29,401 nt of DNA, from the IMG/VR virus record IMGVR_UViG_3300042311_000582, positions 1 to 29,401 of that record; one strand, given 5' to 3'. A program made the position numbers and the translations under genes. Under the pieces are notes generated by a model. That model saw only the letters and a program-made list of their open reading frames with translations. It had not been told where the DNA came from and searched no databases. Position 1 is the first letter of the stretch. The number at the start of each line of letters is the position of its first letter. Positions 14,272-23,888 of the stretch are shown here, in pieces. Source of the stretch: a virus.

Positions 14272-17200
14272 TTAATCAAATTTAATTTTACCAGTAAAGA
14301 TTTTAGTATTAGCAGGTTCTAAGTTTACTGTCGTAAATAAATCAGTTAATAATTTCTTTTGAGCCGCCTCTGTTGCTGGGTCAGGTACTGTTGTATAATC
14401 AAAAACCCTTGTTTTTCCTGCGGGATATAAAATATCATCAGGACTTTCAATATATGTTTTATATTCAGAACTTTTTCTAAAATCTGAAAATATTTTTTCT
14501 TCTTTTTTAATTTCTTTACTATATTCTTTAGCTAAATCATCAGTAACATCATCAAACTTCTTCGTTAACTTTTTATTTGATGAAATGTTTGCGGTTAATA
14601 TAAATGTTTTAAACTCCTGTAATTTATTTTTATCACTAAAGTTTCTACCAACCATCATGAAGAACTCTTTCTTATAAACATCGGTAAAGAAAGAATTGTC
14701 CGCAGTTTTAAAATCCCCCGTATTTTCATATGTGTTTGTGATAATTTCTTTAGCATTTAACACCTTTAAAAAATCATTAAGTGCTTTGTATATTTTAGTA
14801 CAATCAGTTGTAAACTCATCATAGGTATCCCCAATTAAAGGGTCCGATTGTTTAGTACTTTCACTAACTTTTGAAGTACCACTAATACTATATACTAATG
14901 GTGTTCCGTTTTCTAATTTTTTACCATCAGTCTTATCATTGACAACAATTAATTTTCTAATTACTTGTACATAGTTTTGTTCTTTAACTGTTAAATCAGT
15001 AACAATTTTTTGTGTACTATTAGGTAAAGTTAAATAAACCTGTTTTAAATAAGATATCATATTAGTTTTTATGACACTAAATTCATTAGGGAGTATATCC
15101 GGATAGTTGTTAGTATCTAATTCAGCAATTATTGGATTAAGTCCATTCTCAATGTCAACAATGCATTTATCCAACAATTCTTGGAATAAATTAACTTTGT
15201 CATTACCCGATGTTTTTGAAATTAACGGTTTACCATAAATCTCAGTTGGGTAACTAACGGTTCCTACGTTTAAAGGACCATCTCGATAATCTCTGTATTG
15301 ATTAACTAATTGTAACACACCATAATTAGTTTGTAACACAATACTTTCCAATTGATTATATAAAGAATTAAAATATGAAGTTGTCTCAGACAACATCTTA
15401 TCCATAATAACTCCATAACTAATTTCACCAGTTTCACCTCCAACAACTCTGTTGAAATTAACGATGTCACCTATTGTATTACCGAAATCATTTTGAATTT
15501 GGTTATCAACATTGTCAACAGTTTCAACAGGTTGACTTTGTAATATGGATTCCATTAAAGTTTTATCTAATGCTGAGGTATCTTCAGTCCATACCGACCT
15601 CTCATCATAAATCTCAGTGTTTGCGTAATAATTAAACGATAACGCGTTTTGTAATTGTTCAACTGGTTTTGCAAGACCCATACCACCAATGAAATCAAAG
15701 TTCATTGTAACATTGGCAATCATTGGTTGAATACCAATACCTTCAGGGTTCATGTCATATAATAATGGTTCATATGTAAATGAAACACTCTTAGGTATTA
15801 TTTTTGTATTATAGAAGTCACCAATGCGTAATATCAATACAGGCGGAGCACCAAATGATGTGTTAACAGCGTCATTGTATTTTGGCTTACCGTCAGGACC
15901 TATGGTTGGAATTGTCTCTCCAGGTCTAACACATTGATTTAAGAATGTTAAACGAGCATTTAATCCTTCAGGTGTCATAGAGTGAAACGCGGGATTAAAG
16001 TATTTTATTTTTTCTTTTATCGAATCATATAACATCGGAACATTTTCCTCAATCACTTGGAAATAGTCACATTCCGAAAGTAATTGTCTTAATATTCGTT
16101 TCCCAATACCTTCTTTAAGTTTTTTCTCAATACTGACCGTAGGTTTTGGTGTTTTTGGTTTAACTGTTATGTCAATAGTTTTAGGAGGTGTTGAGGTTTG
16201 TGTTGTTGTTGGGTCGTTATCGTTTTTACTTTCAGATGGTGGTATAACAACTTTAGACACAATTTTAACACGTCTACAAGCCATAGCATCAACCGAATAA
16301 ATTTGTGAATTAGATGTAACAACACCCGAACCATTTTTAATATCAGTCGTACAATTAACCGACGCCCCCGCACCTCCAGATATCGATTTTGGTATCACCA
16401 CAGTTTCTGTTTCACCTGAAGCGGATTCATTTAAAATAAATTTTTTACTATCAATAAACGGTGTTATATCACACCCAATTTCTTTACCTCTAATTTTAAG
16501 ATATTGTAAAACAGAATCATTTCTTCTTTTAGAAAGATTTATGTTATATGGTACTGAGGCAGGTGCTGAAGCCGAACCAACTAAAGTTAAATTAATTGTT
16601 GCGTTTTTTTCTTTTAATAAATTAAACGCCTTTTTAATAAAACCGTTATCCGCATTGTCAATTGTATTAAAGTTGTCGATAATTACCGTATCATAAAACT
16701 CTTTAACTTTTTTATTAGTATCACAATATGATGAGTTTGTTGTACAATAACTTAAATTCGGCGCAAATACTGCATTGGCTTTATCTACATAATTACTAAT
16801 GAATGATGACGCGGTATAACTTCCATAGGTTACTTGATAAGGTACTGACGAAACTATTTTATTTGTGTTAGGGTCGGGAATATCGTTGTAAAAATAGAAT
16901 GCTAATTCGTTAAATTCGTTTTCAAATTCAACGCCTGAATTGTCAGGTGTGTCCGCCTTATTATTATTATTTGCAGGGTCTTTAAATTCTTTTGACACCA
17001 CCCCACCAGGGTTATCCTTAGGAATAGATTGATTAACACCTTGTAACTCTTCTTTAGTTATTCTAGGGTTATTTAATATCTCTTGATAAGTATATAAATC
17101 CTTAGTTGGTATTGTATTAAATTTAAGACCTAATTGATAGATATCATACTTCACACAACCCGCAAAGAACGAATCAATGATTGAATTTAACTTTTCTTTA

Positions 17201-19353
17201 CTTTGACCCTTTAATTGTTTTTCAACAATAACATTCATAACAGAAGGGTGGTCAACAATAATTTTCCAAGAAAGTGTTCCTGTTCTACTTGTATCTTTAT
17301 ACGTATAAATTGGCTCAGGTCTACCTAAGAATGATTGTGAATTCCAATTTGCAGAACTTTGGTCTGAGAATTTTAAATCATAAGGTGGGAACCACATAAC
17401 TCTACCCCCATTAGGCCCTTTCTCACATGTAGGTAATTCATCATATGTAAATCCTGGTCTACTTGAAGTTCTCCAAGCTAAATTCTCAATGGAAAACATA
17501 TATTTTTTAGCGACTAATTTACCTTGGTTATTCATTTGAATATTTGTTGAACCAGGGTTTTTAAGTGGTGCAATGTTTAAGTTATATGTGTTATCAAATA
17601 CAGAATTACTAAAACGTCTACCCGAAGTAGTAATACCATCAGTTTTTTGTAAATCGGCGTAAGTGTAATAAGGAGTATCCTTAGTGAATACACGACAATA
17701 TTCAATTCCTTTTTCTGCCCCCGTAGTAAAATCAGTGTAAGATAATACTTGAGAACCTTTAGTTATTTCTTTATATCCATCATGGAATACCTTACTAACT
17801 TGGTTAATTGCATTACCAACATGTTTTAAACGAGAAATACCCGTAACATTATCCGCAGACTCAATTAATCTTTGAGTTTGGTCTAAAATTGAAGTCTCTT
17901 TGAATGTTATATTAGTTGACTCATCTCTTGTATAGTAACTACTAACTTGGTTAAACTCAGGGTCTAAACTACCTGTACCTCCACCAGGTGTTGCATTAAA
18001 ACCAGCATTACCTTTATATTTAGGTGAAGTCCATACAAATTGTCCGTCAATACCACCACCATCACTTAATGGTTTTGCCGCAAGACCAAATTTTAACACT
18101 TCATTATTACCTTCATATAATATTGCAAGTTCTGAAGGTCCATAAACAGGCACAGGGTCCTGTTGTCCAAAGACATTAACTGGTATTTGATTTGCTGGTG
18201 ATGTTATTGTTGATGGTTCCGCATTTCTACTGCCAACATAATAACCACCAACTAAAGTTCCATTATTAGGATTGATTAAATTAACAGCTAAATTAACCAA
18301 ACCTTGAGCAACGCCTAATAATCCACCATATTGATTTTTATAATCAGGTTGATATCTGTTATAATCAATATTACGAAATAAAACTGACCTTTGACCGTTA
18401 CCCGTATTGGCCAAAAATAATTCAGATGCACTTCTAGATGTGTTTAGAATTGGACCTAAAAACCCTCCCGTTAGTTGATTAATAACATTTAAAGCGTTTG
18501 ATGTTTGTTGTGATAAAAATCCTGGCTTGTGTTGTTGTGTGAAGTAATCACCAGGAATCATAGAAACAGGCCAATAAGCACTTGCTAATCTAGTTGCCAA
18601 ATCAAAAGCCGCAACAATAGGATTTTCAGGAACAGTAATTCTATAGTTTTTATAAATTAATGGTTCTTGTCCTGTGGCAATTAAGGCCGCCTCAAAAGGG
18701 TCACTTAAAGAATCTAAGTTAACTTGACCAACAGTATTTTGAAATATCTCAGCAGCAATTCTTTGTTGGAATAAGTAATTAAGTTGTTCCGCCCCAATTT
18801 TAGCAATATAAGAATCCTGAGATAATGAACCATCAGTTCCATTTGGGTTATCTGAAAATAATATACTATATGGTGTATAAGAAGACGGTACAAATGTTGG
18901 TGGATTCCAATAAGGTTGATAAATTTTATTATTGTTTTGGATATCCGTAATAACTACCATATCATTAAACCCACCAGAAGGTCCATATATGTTTTCAATA
19001 TATGCGGCGTCGATATAAAACTCATTAACTAAGTCTAATACTGTATCTGTTGGGCTGTACTCCCCTTGATTAGAGTTAACGGGCAATGGAGGTCCATTGT
19101 ATGTGATAGTCGTATTAAAACCACCATTAGGCCCGTATTCATTTAATGGATATAATATCGCAGCAAATGGGTCATTTGCAATTAAACCATCGGGTGAATC
19201 AATAACACTACTTACTGTTTGTTGTATTTCATAAGCAATAGGTCCTGAGGGTGGGGTATAAACACCAGGTACATCATATGGGTCCAAATTTGTGGCTAAT
19301 AACGCATTTCTAAATGAAGAACTGTTAACAAACGATAATGTACTATCAGGCAT
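14272..19353 (-). CDS. Large baseplate/tail protein with OmpA-like segment (1693 aa)
   Basis: A multidomain protein in the baseplate block. The N-terminal 600 residues are Asn/Pro/Gly-rich with no recognised family. At about 615-715 is a region with GGRVMWFPPYDLKFS and SRTGTLSWKIIVDHPS, which I associate with structural proteins of large phages. Residues about 885-955 look like an OmpA C-terminal-type domain: a TINLTLVGSAS strand, then NINLSKRRNDSVLQYLKIRG. Residues about 1165-1255 (LILRIGDFYNTKIIPKSVSF, then GIGIQPMIANVTMNF) resemble the tube-baseplate junction proteins of contractile tails. The C-terminal 400 residues are helical and lysine-rich. It is preceded by a TATTTATA element 15 bases from the ATG and ends 2 bases before the gp53-like gene. 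A tail structural role is firm; no exact T4 counterpart is assigned. Confidence 0.7.
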   Translation of the reverse strand: MPDSTLSFVNSSSFRNALLATNLDPYDVPGVYTPPSGPIAYEIQQTVSSVIDSPDGLIANDPFAAILYPLNEYGPNGGFNTTITYNGPPLPVNSNQGEYSPTDTVLDLVNEFYIDAAYIENIYGPSGGFNDMVVITDIQNNNKIYQPYWNPPTFVPSSYTPYSILFSDNPNGTDGSLSQDSYIAKIGAEQLNYLFQQRIAAEIFQNTVGQVNLDSLSDPFEAALIATGQEPLIYKNYRITVPENPIVAAFDLATRLASAYWPVSMIPGDYFTQQHKPGFLSQQTSNALNVINQLTGGFLGPILNTSRSASELFLANTGNGQRSVLFRNIDYNRYQPDYKNQYGGLLGVAQGLVNLAVNLINPNNGTLVGGYYVGSRNAEPSTITSPANQIPVNVFGQQDPVPVYGPSELAILYEGNNEVLKFGLAAKPLSDGGGIDGQFVWTSPKYKGNAGFNATPGGGTGSLDPEFNQVSSYYTRDESTNITFKETSILDQTQRLIESADNVTGISRLKHVGNAINQVSKVFHDGYKEITKGSQVLSYTDFTTGAEKGIEYCRVFTKDTPYYTYADLQKTDGITTSGRRFSNSVFDNTYNLNIAPLKNPGSTNIQMNNQGKLVAKKYMFSIENLAWRTSSRPGFTYDELPTCEKGPNGGRVMWFPPYDLKFSDQSSANWNSQSFLGRPEPIYTYKDTSRTGTLSWKIIVDHPSVMNVIVEKQLKGQSKEKLNSIIDSFFAGCVKYDIYQLGLKFNTIPTKDLYTYQEILNNPRITKEELQGVNQSIPKDNPGGVVSKEFKDPANNNNKADTPDNSGVEFENEFNELAFYFYNDIPDPNTNKIVSSVPYQVTYGSYTASSFISNYVDKANAVFAPNLSYCTTNSSYCDTNKKVKEFYDTVIIDNFNTIDNADNGFIKKAFNLLKEKNATINLTLVGSASAPASVPYNINLSKRRNDSVLQYLKIRGKEIGCDITPFIDSKKFILNESASGETETVVIPKSISGGAGASVNCTTDIKNGSGVVTSNSQIYSVDAMACRRVKIVSKVVIPPSESKNDNDPTTTQTSTPPKTIDITVKPKTPKPTVSIEKKLKEGIGKRILRQLLSECDYFQVIEENVPMLYDSIKEKIKYFNPAFHSMTPEGLNARLTFLNQCVRPGETIPTIGPDGKPKYNDAVNTSFGAPPVLILRIGDFYNTKIIPKSVSFTYEPLLYDMNPEGIGIQPMIANVTMNFDFIGGMGLAKPVEQLQNALSFNYYANTEIYDERSVWTEDTSALDKTLMESILQSQPVETVDNVDNQIQNDFGNTIGDIVNFNRVVGGETGEISYGVIMDKMLSETTSYFNSLYNQLESIVLQTNYGVLQLVNQYRDYRDGPLNVGTVSYPTEIYGKPLISKTSGNDKVNLFQELLDKCIVDIENGLNPIIAELDTNNYPDILPNEFSVIKTNMISYLKQVYLTLPNSTQKIVTDLTVKEQNYVQVIRKLIVVNDKTDGKKLENGTPLVYSISGTSKVSESTKQSDPLIGDTYDEFTTDCTKIYKALNDFLKVLNAKEIITNTYENTGDFKTADNSFFTDVYKKEFFMMVGRNFSDKNKLQEFKTFILTANISSNKKLTKKFDDVTDDLAKEYSKEIKKEEKIFSDFRKSSEYKTYIESPDDILYPAGKTRVFDYTTVPDPATEAAQKKLLTDLFTTVNLEPANTKIFTGKIKFD

Positions 19354-21360: not shown

Positions 21361-21397
21361 CACCAAAAACAATTTTACTAACCGTTTTTAGGTGTAT
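21358..21397 (-). terminator. Hairpin over the end of the chaperone extension
   Basis: On the minus strand ATACACC, one bulged T, and AAAAAC (21384-21397) pair with GTTTTT and GGTGTAT (21358-21370): 13 base pairs around a loop that contains the TAG stop of the frameshift extension. The downstream T tract is weak (TTTATAC), so it may act as a poor terminator, an attenuator, or RNA that protects the 3' end. Confidence 0.4.
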
Positions 21398-21536
21398 TGT
21401 CCTCAATAATTCTATCGATTAGGTACTTTCGCATATAAGTTGGCATAATGTGAAATTCAGTATAAGATAATCTTATAAATCTCGCCAAAAAATAATACTC
21501 CTCAATTAAAAATTGTTTGTGATTAGAAGAAAGGCC
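21378..21536 (-). CDS. Candidate +1 frameshift extension of the tape-measure chaperone (52 codons)
   Basis: After the gp26-like frame stops at 21523, another frame stays open to a TAG at 21378-21380. It has neighbour-like codon use (AGA, TTA, ATA) and a clearly protein-like sequence, with an IEEYYFLARFIRLSYTEF helix and an IMPTYMRKYLIDRIIE helix. It has no ATG except at its 31st codon, and the frame extends back into the upstream gene. Shifting +1 (or -2) at GAG TTT TTT CGG (21535-21546) joins it to the chaperone: tRNA-Phe can slip from TTT to TTC while the rare CGG waits, giving a product of about 300 residues. The small helical extension just before the tape measure gene is the layout of lambda G/GT-type chaperones. 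An independent short gene or an assembly error is also possible. Confidence 0.6.
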   Translation of the reverse strand, partial: GLSSNHKQFLIEEYYFLARFIRLSYTEFHIMPTYMRKYLIDRIIEDNTPKNG

Positions 21537-22281
21537 GAAAAAACTCCACCCCAAAGGTAATCTCGAAAGATACCAAGTCTCCTGAAGGGGCTTTTACTGA
21601 TTTTACTAAATCTAATGAAGGTTGATTTTCTCTAATAAAATTACGGATATACTTAGAATCCATAATTGGCATTGAGTTAACGAAATTTGAAATTTGTTCC
21701 TTGGAATCATTCCCGTTAATTTCAATAATTTGTTTTGCTAGTCTCCAAGTAATGACTGGCGCCGTTCTTCCTACAGGATATTGGTCAGCCATTTTACTGA
21801 TTTCAGTTGTTTCAGCAAAACTTAATGGTTTTAATTTAACCGAAACTCCTGATTTTGGTAATGTTGTTGTAAAAACACCATTTTCGTCAGGTTGGTGTTG
21901 TGTTTTTTTAATGTTTAACTCATCCAATACTACTGTATGTGAAAAAGGTTTACTTGTTTTGGGGTCAGTTACTGATATTTTATATTCAGGTCCAAATGAA
22001 GTGTTACGTAAGAAAATAAGAATAGCCTCAATATCACCGTCCAATAATTCTTCAGGTCTTAAATCGTGTTCATAAATTTTACTACGTAATAAAGTCATAA
22101 TGATATTATCATTACTCATTTGTGTTGCCCCCATCAATGCGTTTTCGTCATTTGCGGTCAAGTAACCGACTTTAATTGATTTCTTTTTTGATTTATAAAA
22201 TACACCACCTGAAGGTAGTTGTACTATATCGTGAGGTAAGTTAAAACTCTCCGTTCCTGCGTCAATGATACTTTGGTCCAT
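21523..22281 (-). CDS. 26: gp26-like baseplate hub assembly / tape-measure chaperone protein (252 aa)
   Basis: The sequence fits the T4 gp26 family: PSGGVFYKSKKKSIKVGYLT at about 23-42, a TANDENAL segment, a LLDGDIEAILIFLRNTSFGP stretch near 79-98, then VVLDELNI and a LKPLSFAETTEI region. In T4, gp26 and neighbouring gp51 are needed for hub assembly; by position this family is a good candidate for the tape measure chaperone. It ends in FFRPFF with a TAA at 21523. The run of six T followed by CGG just before this stop is a potential +1 slip site leading into the extension at 21378-21536. That CGG is the only one among eight Arg codons of the gene; the others are AGA or CGT. The leader carries TATATTTTATTATAAAAG, a loose version of the window's promoter motif. 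Confidence 0.75.
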   Translation of the reverse strand: MDQSIIDAGTESFNLPHDIVQLPSGGVFYKSKKKSIKVGYLTANDENALMGATQMSNDNIIMTLLRSKIYEHDLRPEELLDGDIEAILIFLRNTSFGPEYKISVTDPKTSKPFSHTVVLDELNIKKTQHQPDENGVFTTTLPKSGVSVKLKPLSFAETTEISKMADQYPVGRTAPVITWRLAKQIIEINGNDSKEQISNFVNSMPIMDSKYIRNFIRENQPSLDLVKSVKAPSGDLVSFEITFGVEFFRPFF

Positions 22282-22406: not shown

Positions 22407-22895
22407 TCAATAAACTAATATACAACGGTCCATTCGCATTGTAGCTGTGATACTTGCTAAAGCGTCTGTATTATAAGCCAATGAGTCAAAGTTAACATCC
22501 GATAAGAATGTTCCCTCTAAAATCCATTTCTCAACAACAACACCAGTTGGGTCTAACATTTCTAAATCGACGTTCTTTTTGTATCCTGCGGCATAACCCA
22601 TACGACCTGTCACTGATTCAGCACATAGACGTACCCACTCCATAAGAGCTTGAGACGCAGACGGACCAATAGGGTCACGGAATTTAACGTTAAGAGTTCC
22701 CCAAGTAAAACGACCTGCAACATAGGTTGAAGTGTTTAAGAAGGGAATCTCAACAGGGTTTATAGTTATATGTGGTCTTGACGTAGATTCAACGAACCAT
22801 TCGTTAATACCCAATGTTGTTGGGAACCGAAGAATGAACCTGTTTTGTCTTTTTGGTTCATACGGTATCGGCATTTTCATCAATAAATCAGCCAT
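22407..22895 (-). CDS. 19: Tail tube protein (T4 gp19-like)
   Basis: A 162-residue protein with the conserved run of the T4-type tube subunit: RFILRFPTTLGINEWFVEST near the start, then VEIPFLNTSTYVAGRFTWGT, VKFRDPIGPSASQALMEWVR, ESVTGRMGYAAGYKK, LDPTGVVVEKW and a closing MRMDRCILVY. Length matches T4 gp19 (163 residues). The subunits stack in hexameric rings around the tape measure to form the inner tube. It lies downstream of the sheath gene, as in T4, but with a HAD-type enzyme gene between them. It has its own promoter-like TATTTATA 40 bases upstream and a strong terminator behind, as expected for a major structural protein. The A-rich leader has no Shine-Dalgarno in the Gram-negative sense. 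Confidence 0.93.
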   Translation of the reverse strand: MADLLMKMPIPYEPKRQNRFILRFPTTLGINEWFVESTSRPHITINPVEIPFLNTSTYVAGRFTWGTLNVKFRDPIGPSASQALMEWVRLCAESVTGRMGYAAGYKKNVDLEMLDPTGVVVEKWILEGTFLSDVNFDSLAYNTDALASITATMRMDRCILVY

Positions 22896-23020: not shown

Positions 23021-23842
23021 TTAATATTCTTTTTTAATTCCTCCTGCAGTAGAATAAGTCTTAATTATATTATCTGGCTCATTTTCAAAATGACTTTTAA
23101 CTTTTTCCACATTTCTTAAATCATCATCTGAAAAACCAATTATAGGTAAAAAGTTATTAGTTATTTTATTCTTTAAATACGCTTTCTTCTTAATTTGTTC
23201 AGAAACTTCTTTAATATACTCAACAAATTCTTTTAAAGCTTTAATTTTTCCTTCTTCGGGATTTGTTGCCGAGCCTTCTCCATAACTCACAGGATAAAAT
23301 CTACAAAGGTCTAAATATTCACGTATAATTTCACGTTTATTTAAATCACCCTCATCGGCAATGTGTCGAAATTTTTCTAAGTTCTTAACTAACTCGTCTG
23401 AGTTAATTCCATTTTTATTTGAAACAATTAGGTTGTATACCGCCTCTTTAATTACCGAAGGGGTGTGACCTCTAGCGGTAACGATAGAAAAAATAGACCC
23501 GTTATTTAACGCCTCCACAAAATCAGGCCAAGCAGGACCTGGTTTTGCTAACATAGAGTCCACAATAAATTGTTTGTCTCCCGCAACACCAAAATATTTA
23601 AATGGTTCATCACTAAACCCTACAATAGAATGACCTTCATAGTCAAACGGTTCTTCACCTATATCTGTTCTATATTCCGCAAAATCCTCAGTTGACATAC
23701 CAACATCATTACCTTCCTCATCCTTTAAGATAATCTTAGTCGGCATTATCAGTATGTTGTCATCCCAGTCAAATGAATAGTATTTCATGTCAGGTGTTCC
23801 CTCTTCATCAATACCTTCTACTATTCTTTTTTTATTTATCAT
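23021..23842 (-). CDS. HAD-superfamily hydrolase between sheath and tube genes (273 aa)
   Basis: With the ATG at 23840-23842 as start, the HAD motifs are complete. Motif I is FDWDDN with nucleophile D25 and acid/base D27; motif II is SIVTARGH with T122; a motif III candidate is K199 in PEEGKIK; motif IV is GFSDDDLRN with D239-D241. The enzyme is therefore probably a Mg-dependent phosphatase or related phosphotransferase. A cap-like insertion of about 90 residues lies between motifs I and II. The substrate cannot be told; phage members of the fold include polynucleotide 3'-phosphatases and nucleotidases. No kinase P-loop is present, so it is not a T4 Pnk-type fusion. An in-frame TTG at 23861-23863 would add seven residues but lies in a hairpin and is less likely. 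Its place inside the tail operon is unusual. Confidence 0.8.
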   Translation of the reverse strand: MINKKRIVEGIDEEGTPDMKYYSFDWDDNILIMPTKIILKDEEGNDVGMSTEDFAEYRTDIGEEPFDYEGHSIVGFSDEPFKYFGVAGDKQFIVDSMLAKPGPAWPDFVEALNNGSIFSIVTARGHTPSVIKEAVYNLIVSNKNGINSDELVKNLEKFRHIADEGDLNKREIIREYLDLCRFYPVSYGEGSATNPEEGKIKALKEFVEYIKEVSEQIKKKAYLKNKITNNFLPIIGFSDDDLRNVEKVKSHFENEPDNIIKTYSTAGGIKKEY

Positions 23843-23857
23843 TTTCACTATTTGGCT

Positions 23858-23888
23858 AAACAAGCCGAGGTTTTATGTCGACTTGTTT
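23858..23888 (-). terminator. Possible hairpin after the tail sheath gene
   Basis: On the minus strand AAACAAG (23882-23888) pairs with CTTGTTT (23858-23864) around a 17-base loop, 11 bases after the sheath stop. No long T tract follows, so termination would be weak. It may serve as an attenuator or 3'-end stabiliser. Confidence 0.3.

Follow-up and report, generated by a model that had tools for sequence, protein, structure and literature searches.

A conserved UUU_Y site very probably allows a T4-type tail assembly chaperone gene to be read in two ways

How is a protein-coding frame reached that runs on past the end of the gene before it, one base out of register? The question is raised by a gp26-like gene in a 29,401-nucleotide stretch of viral DNA (the window), which ends in frame 0 as GGG GTG GAG TTT TTT CGG CCT TTC TTC TAA (protein end EFFRPFF); after TTT TTT C the +1 frame continues as GGC CTT TCT TCT AAT ... 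and stays open for 52 codons. An earlier note had read the junction as a programmed +1 shift at UUU_CGG that gives a long gp26-family chaperone, and this is the reading that fits all of the evidence and that sequence comparison supports. We consider it very probable that a single T4-type tail assembly chaperone gene is read here in two ways, with a +1 slip yielding the long form; we infer the shift, its direction, its rate and its role from a conserved shift site, a selected extension, homology to gp26/gp51 and the gene order, each of which the comparisons demonstrate.

Results

The gene and its neighborhood

Re-reading the minus strand confirmed the frames, coordinates and codons as first described (Table 1). 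The gp26-like ORF scores 49.4 bits against PF12322 in a profile search (curated cut-off 24.5), which identifies a T4-type chaperone core, and its position, with the tail tube gene on one side and the putative tape measure gene on the other, is one of the G/GT type; the order tail tube, chaperone, tape measure is also annotated in SP-15, LIS04 and immuto. The assignment of the putative tape measure gene draws on a match of the window-family profile to the MelJY01-family profile (E=7e-6) and of the latter to the annotated immuto tape measure (1e-13), no direct match having been found between the window's 646-aa protein and annotated tape measures. The extension is recognized as a feature by its open frame in complete relatives, its coding-type codon-position pattern and a profile link to the gp51 C terminus through -1-frame relatives. 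Elsewhere in the window, every gene that shows a long off-frame run directly adjoins another gene on the same strand. The region also contains a 280-aa ORF with a TTG start (23021-23863), between the tail tube gene and the next large gene, and a 1693-aa tail-region protein (14272-19353) with a weak OmpA-like match that is below the cut-off.

Table 1. Features of the chaperone locus in window coordinates
Feature	Position	Strand	Basis or detail
Tail tube protein, upstream of the gp26-like gene	22407..22895	-	phrog_4542 5e-24
gp26-like ORF, putative short form (TAC-N), 252 aa	21523..22281	-	PF12322 6e-13 (cut-off passed), phrog_150 9e-17
G-rich GGGGTGGAG, possible SD-like stimulator	21544..21552	-	abuts the shift site on its 5' side; codon conservation
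Predicted shift site TTT TTT CGG	21535..21543	-	P-site UUU 21540-21538, A-site CGG 21537-21535
+1-frame extension, TAC-C domain like the T4 gp51 C terminus	21378..21536	-	52 codons (21536-21381) and TAG 21380-21378
Next gene, putative tape measure protein, 646 aa	19393..21333	-	position and profile-profile links

Conservation of the extension and of the shift site

Relatives of the window gene were collected (80 kept of 501 found), and two further families, immuto and MelJY01, were gathered by searches seeded with distant members. The U6-C-G site with an open +1 frame is present in 79/79 relatives with a complete ORF end; the whole extension lies within the contig in 77 of these, and all 77 (66-100% identical) keep a long +1 extension, as do 149/149 complete loci of the immuto and MelJY01 families. 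Across the three families a +1 extension of 46-108 codons is found in 226/226 complete loci, all of them agreeing in sequence with a pattern of two products from one gene, the long one with an extra C-terminal domain; the earlier note had proposed to check for such recurrence of extension and slip site in relatives. The -1 frame, used as a control, has median open runs of 5, 10 and 12 codons in the three families. Because loci within a family are related, the 226 are not independent events; an open +1 frame in every one of them, set against such short -1 runs, places the extension beyond chance.

Distant phages in INPHARED agree, with UUC UUU_CGU in GXN1, UUU_CAC in SP-15, UUU_CGC in BRock, UUU_AGU in LIS04, UUU_UGG in Mel-JY01, UUU_CUA in LR756508, UUU_CCC_UAA in QdP_Psa3 and UUU_CUU in immuto. 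A search for relatives with SP-15 as seed returned SP-15 itself as the sole result, and the genome collection searched for a host gave one distant match, in a Bacteroidaceae MAG and without a +1 extension, and led to no host assignment. In SP-15, immuto, BRock and Mel-JY01 the +1-frame extension has been deposited as a small separate "hypothetical protein". Behind its tail tube gene, the Pseudomonas phage QdP_Psa3 carries a tandem pair of hypothetical genes of similar size (locus L089, 1738-3178), the second of which is PF12322-like.

Differences by codon position are 0.238/0.158/0.477 in the extension read in +1 and 0.234/0.157/0.427 in the core, a pattern indicating that selection acts on the extension as a +1-frame protein. 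Codon identity was compared among 16 diverged window-family members at positions sharing a residue, with the expectation taken from window codon usage. It was 61% in the core (expected 51%), 84% across the ten codons leading to the shift (expected 55%), 93% across the five codons past it (expected 40%) and 54% in the remaining extension (expected 53%). By this measure, silent substitution is held down in the codons around the shift.

The Arg codon at the site is CGN in 41/41 distinct window-family sequences, compared with ∼24% of the window's Arg codons. Its third base is variable; such changes leave the frame-0 protein as it is but alter the +1 residue, and hence it is the site that is kept and not that residue. 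The earlier note had given weight to the rarity of CGG, and this is indeed the sole CGG among the 8 Arg codons of the gene (0.7% of the window's Arg codons). As the key signal, however, CGG was rejected, with CGG, CGC, CGA and CGT all occurring and CUU, CUA, UGG, UAC and CAC found in other families; what the site retains is UUU followed by C (C or U elsewhere).

At all 235 fused loci the inferred site is UUU_Y, with U following UUU in 132 and C in 103, so that tRNA-Phe can re-pair one base forward at a conserved, shift-prone position. The window family has UUU_UUU_CGN, the MelJY01 family mostly UUU_UUU_UGG, and the immuto family UUU_CUU_UGG, UUU_CUA_UGG or UUU_UUU_UGG; to judge by these codons, a +1 P-site slip of tRNA-Phe fits the sites of all three families. 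Influenza PA-X is a reported case of slippage on UUU_C with a CGN codon in the A site (PMC3498833), and amalgaviruses are a proposed one (PMC5052127).

On the 5' side of the site, the window family has the G-rich codons GGG (41/41), GTG (35/41) and GAG (35/41), for which genome usage is 14%, 9.5% and 27%, respectively. The candidate SD-like element formed here, GGGGUGGAG, has a spacing to the shift site that resembles that of the prfB SD element, and prfB frameshifting occurs also in Bacteroidia (PMC8710568). The G-rich element is not common to the immuto and MelJY01 families, and a role as SD-like stimulator is only a suggestion for this family-specific element. A conserved 3' RNA structure was looked for downstream of the shift, and none was supported. 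The sequence of an upstream stem, GCCCC/GGGGU (21591-21587 with 21552-21548), is invariant, which makes covariation uninformative, and the fold predicted there for the window does not improve on those of shuffles. At 21578-21591, ∼40 nt upstream of the shift, GCCCC then GGAGA is nearly invariant in the window family, a conservation exceeding what codon choice needs.

Relation of the extension to gp26 and gp51

PF12322 covers residues 1-206 of the 208 of T4 gp26 and residues 1-201 of the 249 of gp51, gp26 being the core alone and gp51 the core plus 48 residues, and gp26 ends KEFFELL at the position matching the shift. A profile search of the extension against gp51, as suggested in the earlier note, gave a divided answer: set directly against gp51 alone, the extension gives a weak match (E=0.0014, probability 18%), whereas the link holds through -1-frame relatives. 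In cyanophage, Vibrio, Ackermannviridae and jumbo phages, the extensions in the -1 frame match the +1 extensions (E=2.9e-6) and also the gp51 C terminus (E=5.3e-7), and against these and gp51 combined the +1 extensions give E=4.2e-8; phrog_634, "baseplate hub assembly catalyst", matches gp51 and the -1-frame extension of S-CREM1 alike. These profile comparisons make the extension a homologue of the gp51 C-terminal domain (residues about 201-249). This homology, together with the end of gp26 at the shift point, argues that the pair represents a short and a long tail assembly chaperone, the analogue of lambda G/GT.

An AlphaFold model built from 14 close rows (pLDDT 45) was too shallow and was replaced by one on alignment A6; extension-only rows, which had misaligned to the N terminus, were not used. 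In the resulting prediction for the fused protein (pLDDT 81), the core is modelled with confidence and two C-terminal helices with less, and the shift falls at the domain boundary. The model's matches in BFVD are T4-type baseplate hub proteins; among the PDB matches listed, the HK97 tail assembly chaperone 2ob9 has the highest probability (Foldseek 0.63), at a non-significant E=0.7.

The core-domain tree places T4 together with cyanophage, schizotequatrovirus and Ackermannviridae members (support 1.0), a group characterized by -1 extensions or separate genes; on the other side are the +1 members, plus a -1/restart subclade of XacN1, Atu_ph07 and LR756511 (0.85). Several deep supports are low (down to 0.37), and the number of direction changes is thus uncertain. 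Frameshifting is reportedly described as conserved in several T4-like groups in the abstract of a study by Vladimirov and colleagues. The corresponding extension lies in the -1 frame, at U-rich sites such as U_UUU_UUC, in the cyanophage, Vibrio, Methylophilales, XacN1 and Atu_ph07 relatives, and some of these additionally have an overlapping ATG. The few relatives that use the -1 frame or a coupled start speak against the +1 reading.

Discussion

The extension could instead be a small gene of its own, coupled to the upstream gene and begun, for example, at TTG 21554, with no frameshift at all. No ATG lies near the extension start, as the earlier note had said, with the correction that this TTG is in the +1 frame slightly upstream of the shift, where it forms part of the conserved Phe-Gly codons TTT GGG; its presence in the window family makes a separate TTG start formally possible there. 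A TAATG-coupled start moreover occurs in LR756511, there in the -1 frame, and the annotation of several genomes gives the extension as a small gene. However, 33 immuto/MelJY01-family loci lack ATG, GTG and TTG both in the open +1 frame upstream and in the first 15 codons past the shift, the annotated starts fall within the conserved domain, and the conserved CGN and UUU_Y site would be left unexplained, so that we regard a separate start as very unlikely.

The T run itself suggests other routes to the same frame. RNA polymerase might slip on it and supply a shifted mRNA population for ordinary translation, for which the T6 of the window family and the T7 at most MelJY01-family sites offer a substrate, or the ribosome might slip by -2 on U6, as in Mu, where gpGT uses -2 (PMC3498833); the earlier note had allowed for the latter, and the window-family U6 does permit it. 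The immuto-family sites TTTCTTTGG and TTTCTATGG have no long homopolymer yet keep the same fusion, and the T3-C-T3 versions offer no good -2 re-pairing; on these sites either route was rejected as the common mechanism. A -2 slip is impossible at UUU_CUU_UGG or UUU_CUA_UGG, and the window family conserves the C that follows UUU, such that +1 is preferred. We accordingly give polymerase slippage little credence and the -2 slip slightly less. An error of sequencing or assembly in the T run, splitting one gene, is practically negligible as an explanation: homopolymer runs are generally error-prone, but the same break is seen across hundreds of contigs that were assembled separately, as well as in isolate phage genomes, with selected sequence on both sides.

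With a +1 slip, the gene would work as follows. Most ribosomes would stop at UAA and release the 252-residue short form, TAC-N, like T4 gp26. While tRNA-Phe occupies the second UUU of UUU_UUU_CGN in the P site and the A site presents a seldom-used Arg codon, a fraction would slip one base forward onto UUC and make the long form of 300 residues, TAC-NC, which resembles T4 gp51. If lambda G/GT is a guide, the short form may bind the tape measure protein and the extra domain may recruit tail tube subunits.

A 2016 review lists T4 as an exception to the short/long chaperone rule (PMC5009743). The reclassification of gp26 as G/GT-type, which the earlier note had put forward as new, was already made by Vladimirov et al. 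2022 (Virology 566:9-15), who, as far as PMC10885494 and PMC12846349 report that work, identified gp26/gp51-type genes as short and long tail assembly chaperones. The Adele paper describes polyT -1 signals in T4-like TAC-N genes, after Vladimirov et al. 2022. Forward shifts account for 350 of the 2718 cases in the annotated phage training set of PRFect. What appears to be new here is the +1 direction with its UUU_Y site, its wide distribution across a large clade and the direction changes on the tree, although some +1 cases may already be contained in Vladimirov et al. 2022. A large group of contractile-tailed phages would thereby come under the short/long chaperone rule, a UUU_Y +1 site that occurs naturally in bacteria would become comparable with -1 sites of the same gene family, and the four small "hypothetical proteins" deposited separately could be reannotated as +1 extensions.

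We think it somewhat more probable than its converse that a major, mostly uncultured T4-like clade makes its long chaperone by a UUU_Y +1 slip, a bacterial counterpart of the influenza and amalgavirus UUU_CGN sites, and that one family has moved among +1, -1, coupled restart and gene duplication with its two products kept. T4 gp26 and gp51 (PF12322, hub assembly chaperones) offer the closest parallel in protein, gp26 being a core that ends EFFELL at the shift position and gp51 carrying ∼48 C-terminal residues related to the extension, but T4 has two separate genes where the window has one for both forms. The T4-like TAC genes of Vladimirov and the -1 members (S-CREM1 cyanophage, Vibrio PVA8) share the core family and a homologous extension; they shift by -1 at polyT, in contrast to +1 at UUU_Y in the window clade. 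The frameshifted chaperones of the lambda G/GT type likewise give a short and a long form from a single gene that immediately precedes the one for the tape measure, although lambda shifts by -1; the likeness drawn here is one of arrangement. The influenza PA-X and amalgavirus sites share the UUU_C slip and an Arg CGN codon in the A site, where all four CGN codons occur; they belong to eukaryotic RNA viruses, eukaryotic ribosomes and unrelated genes, and the likeness is one of mechanism only.
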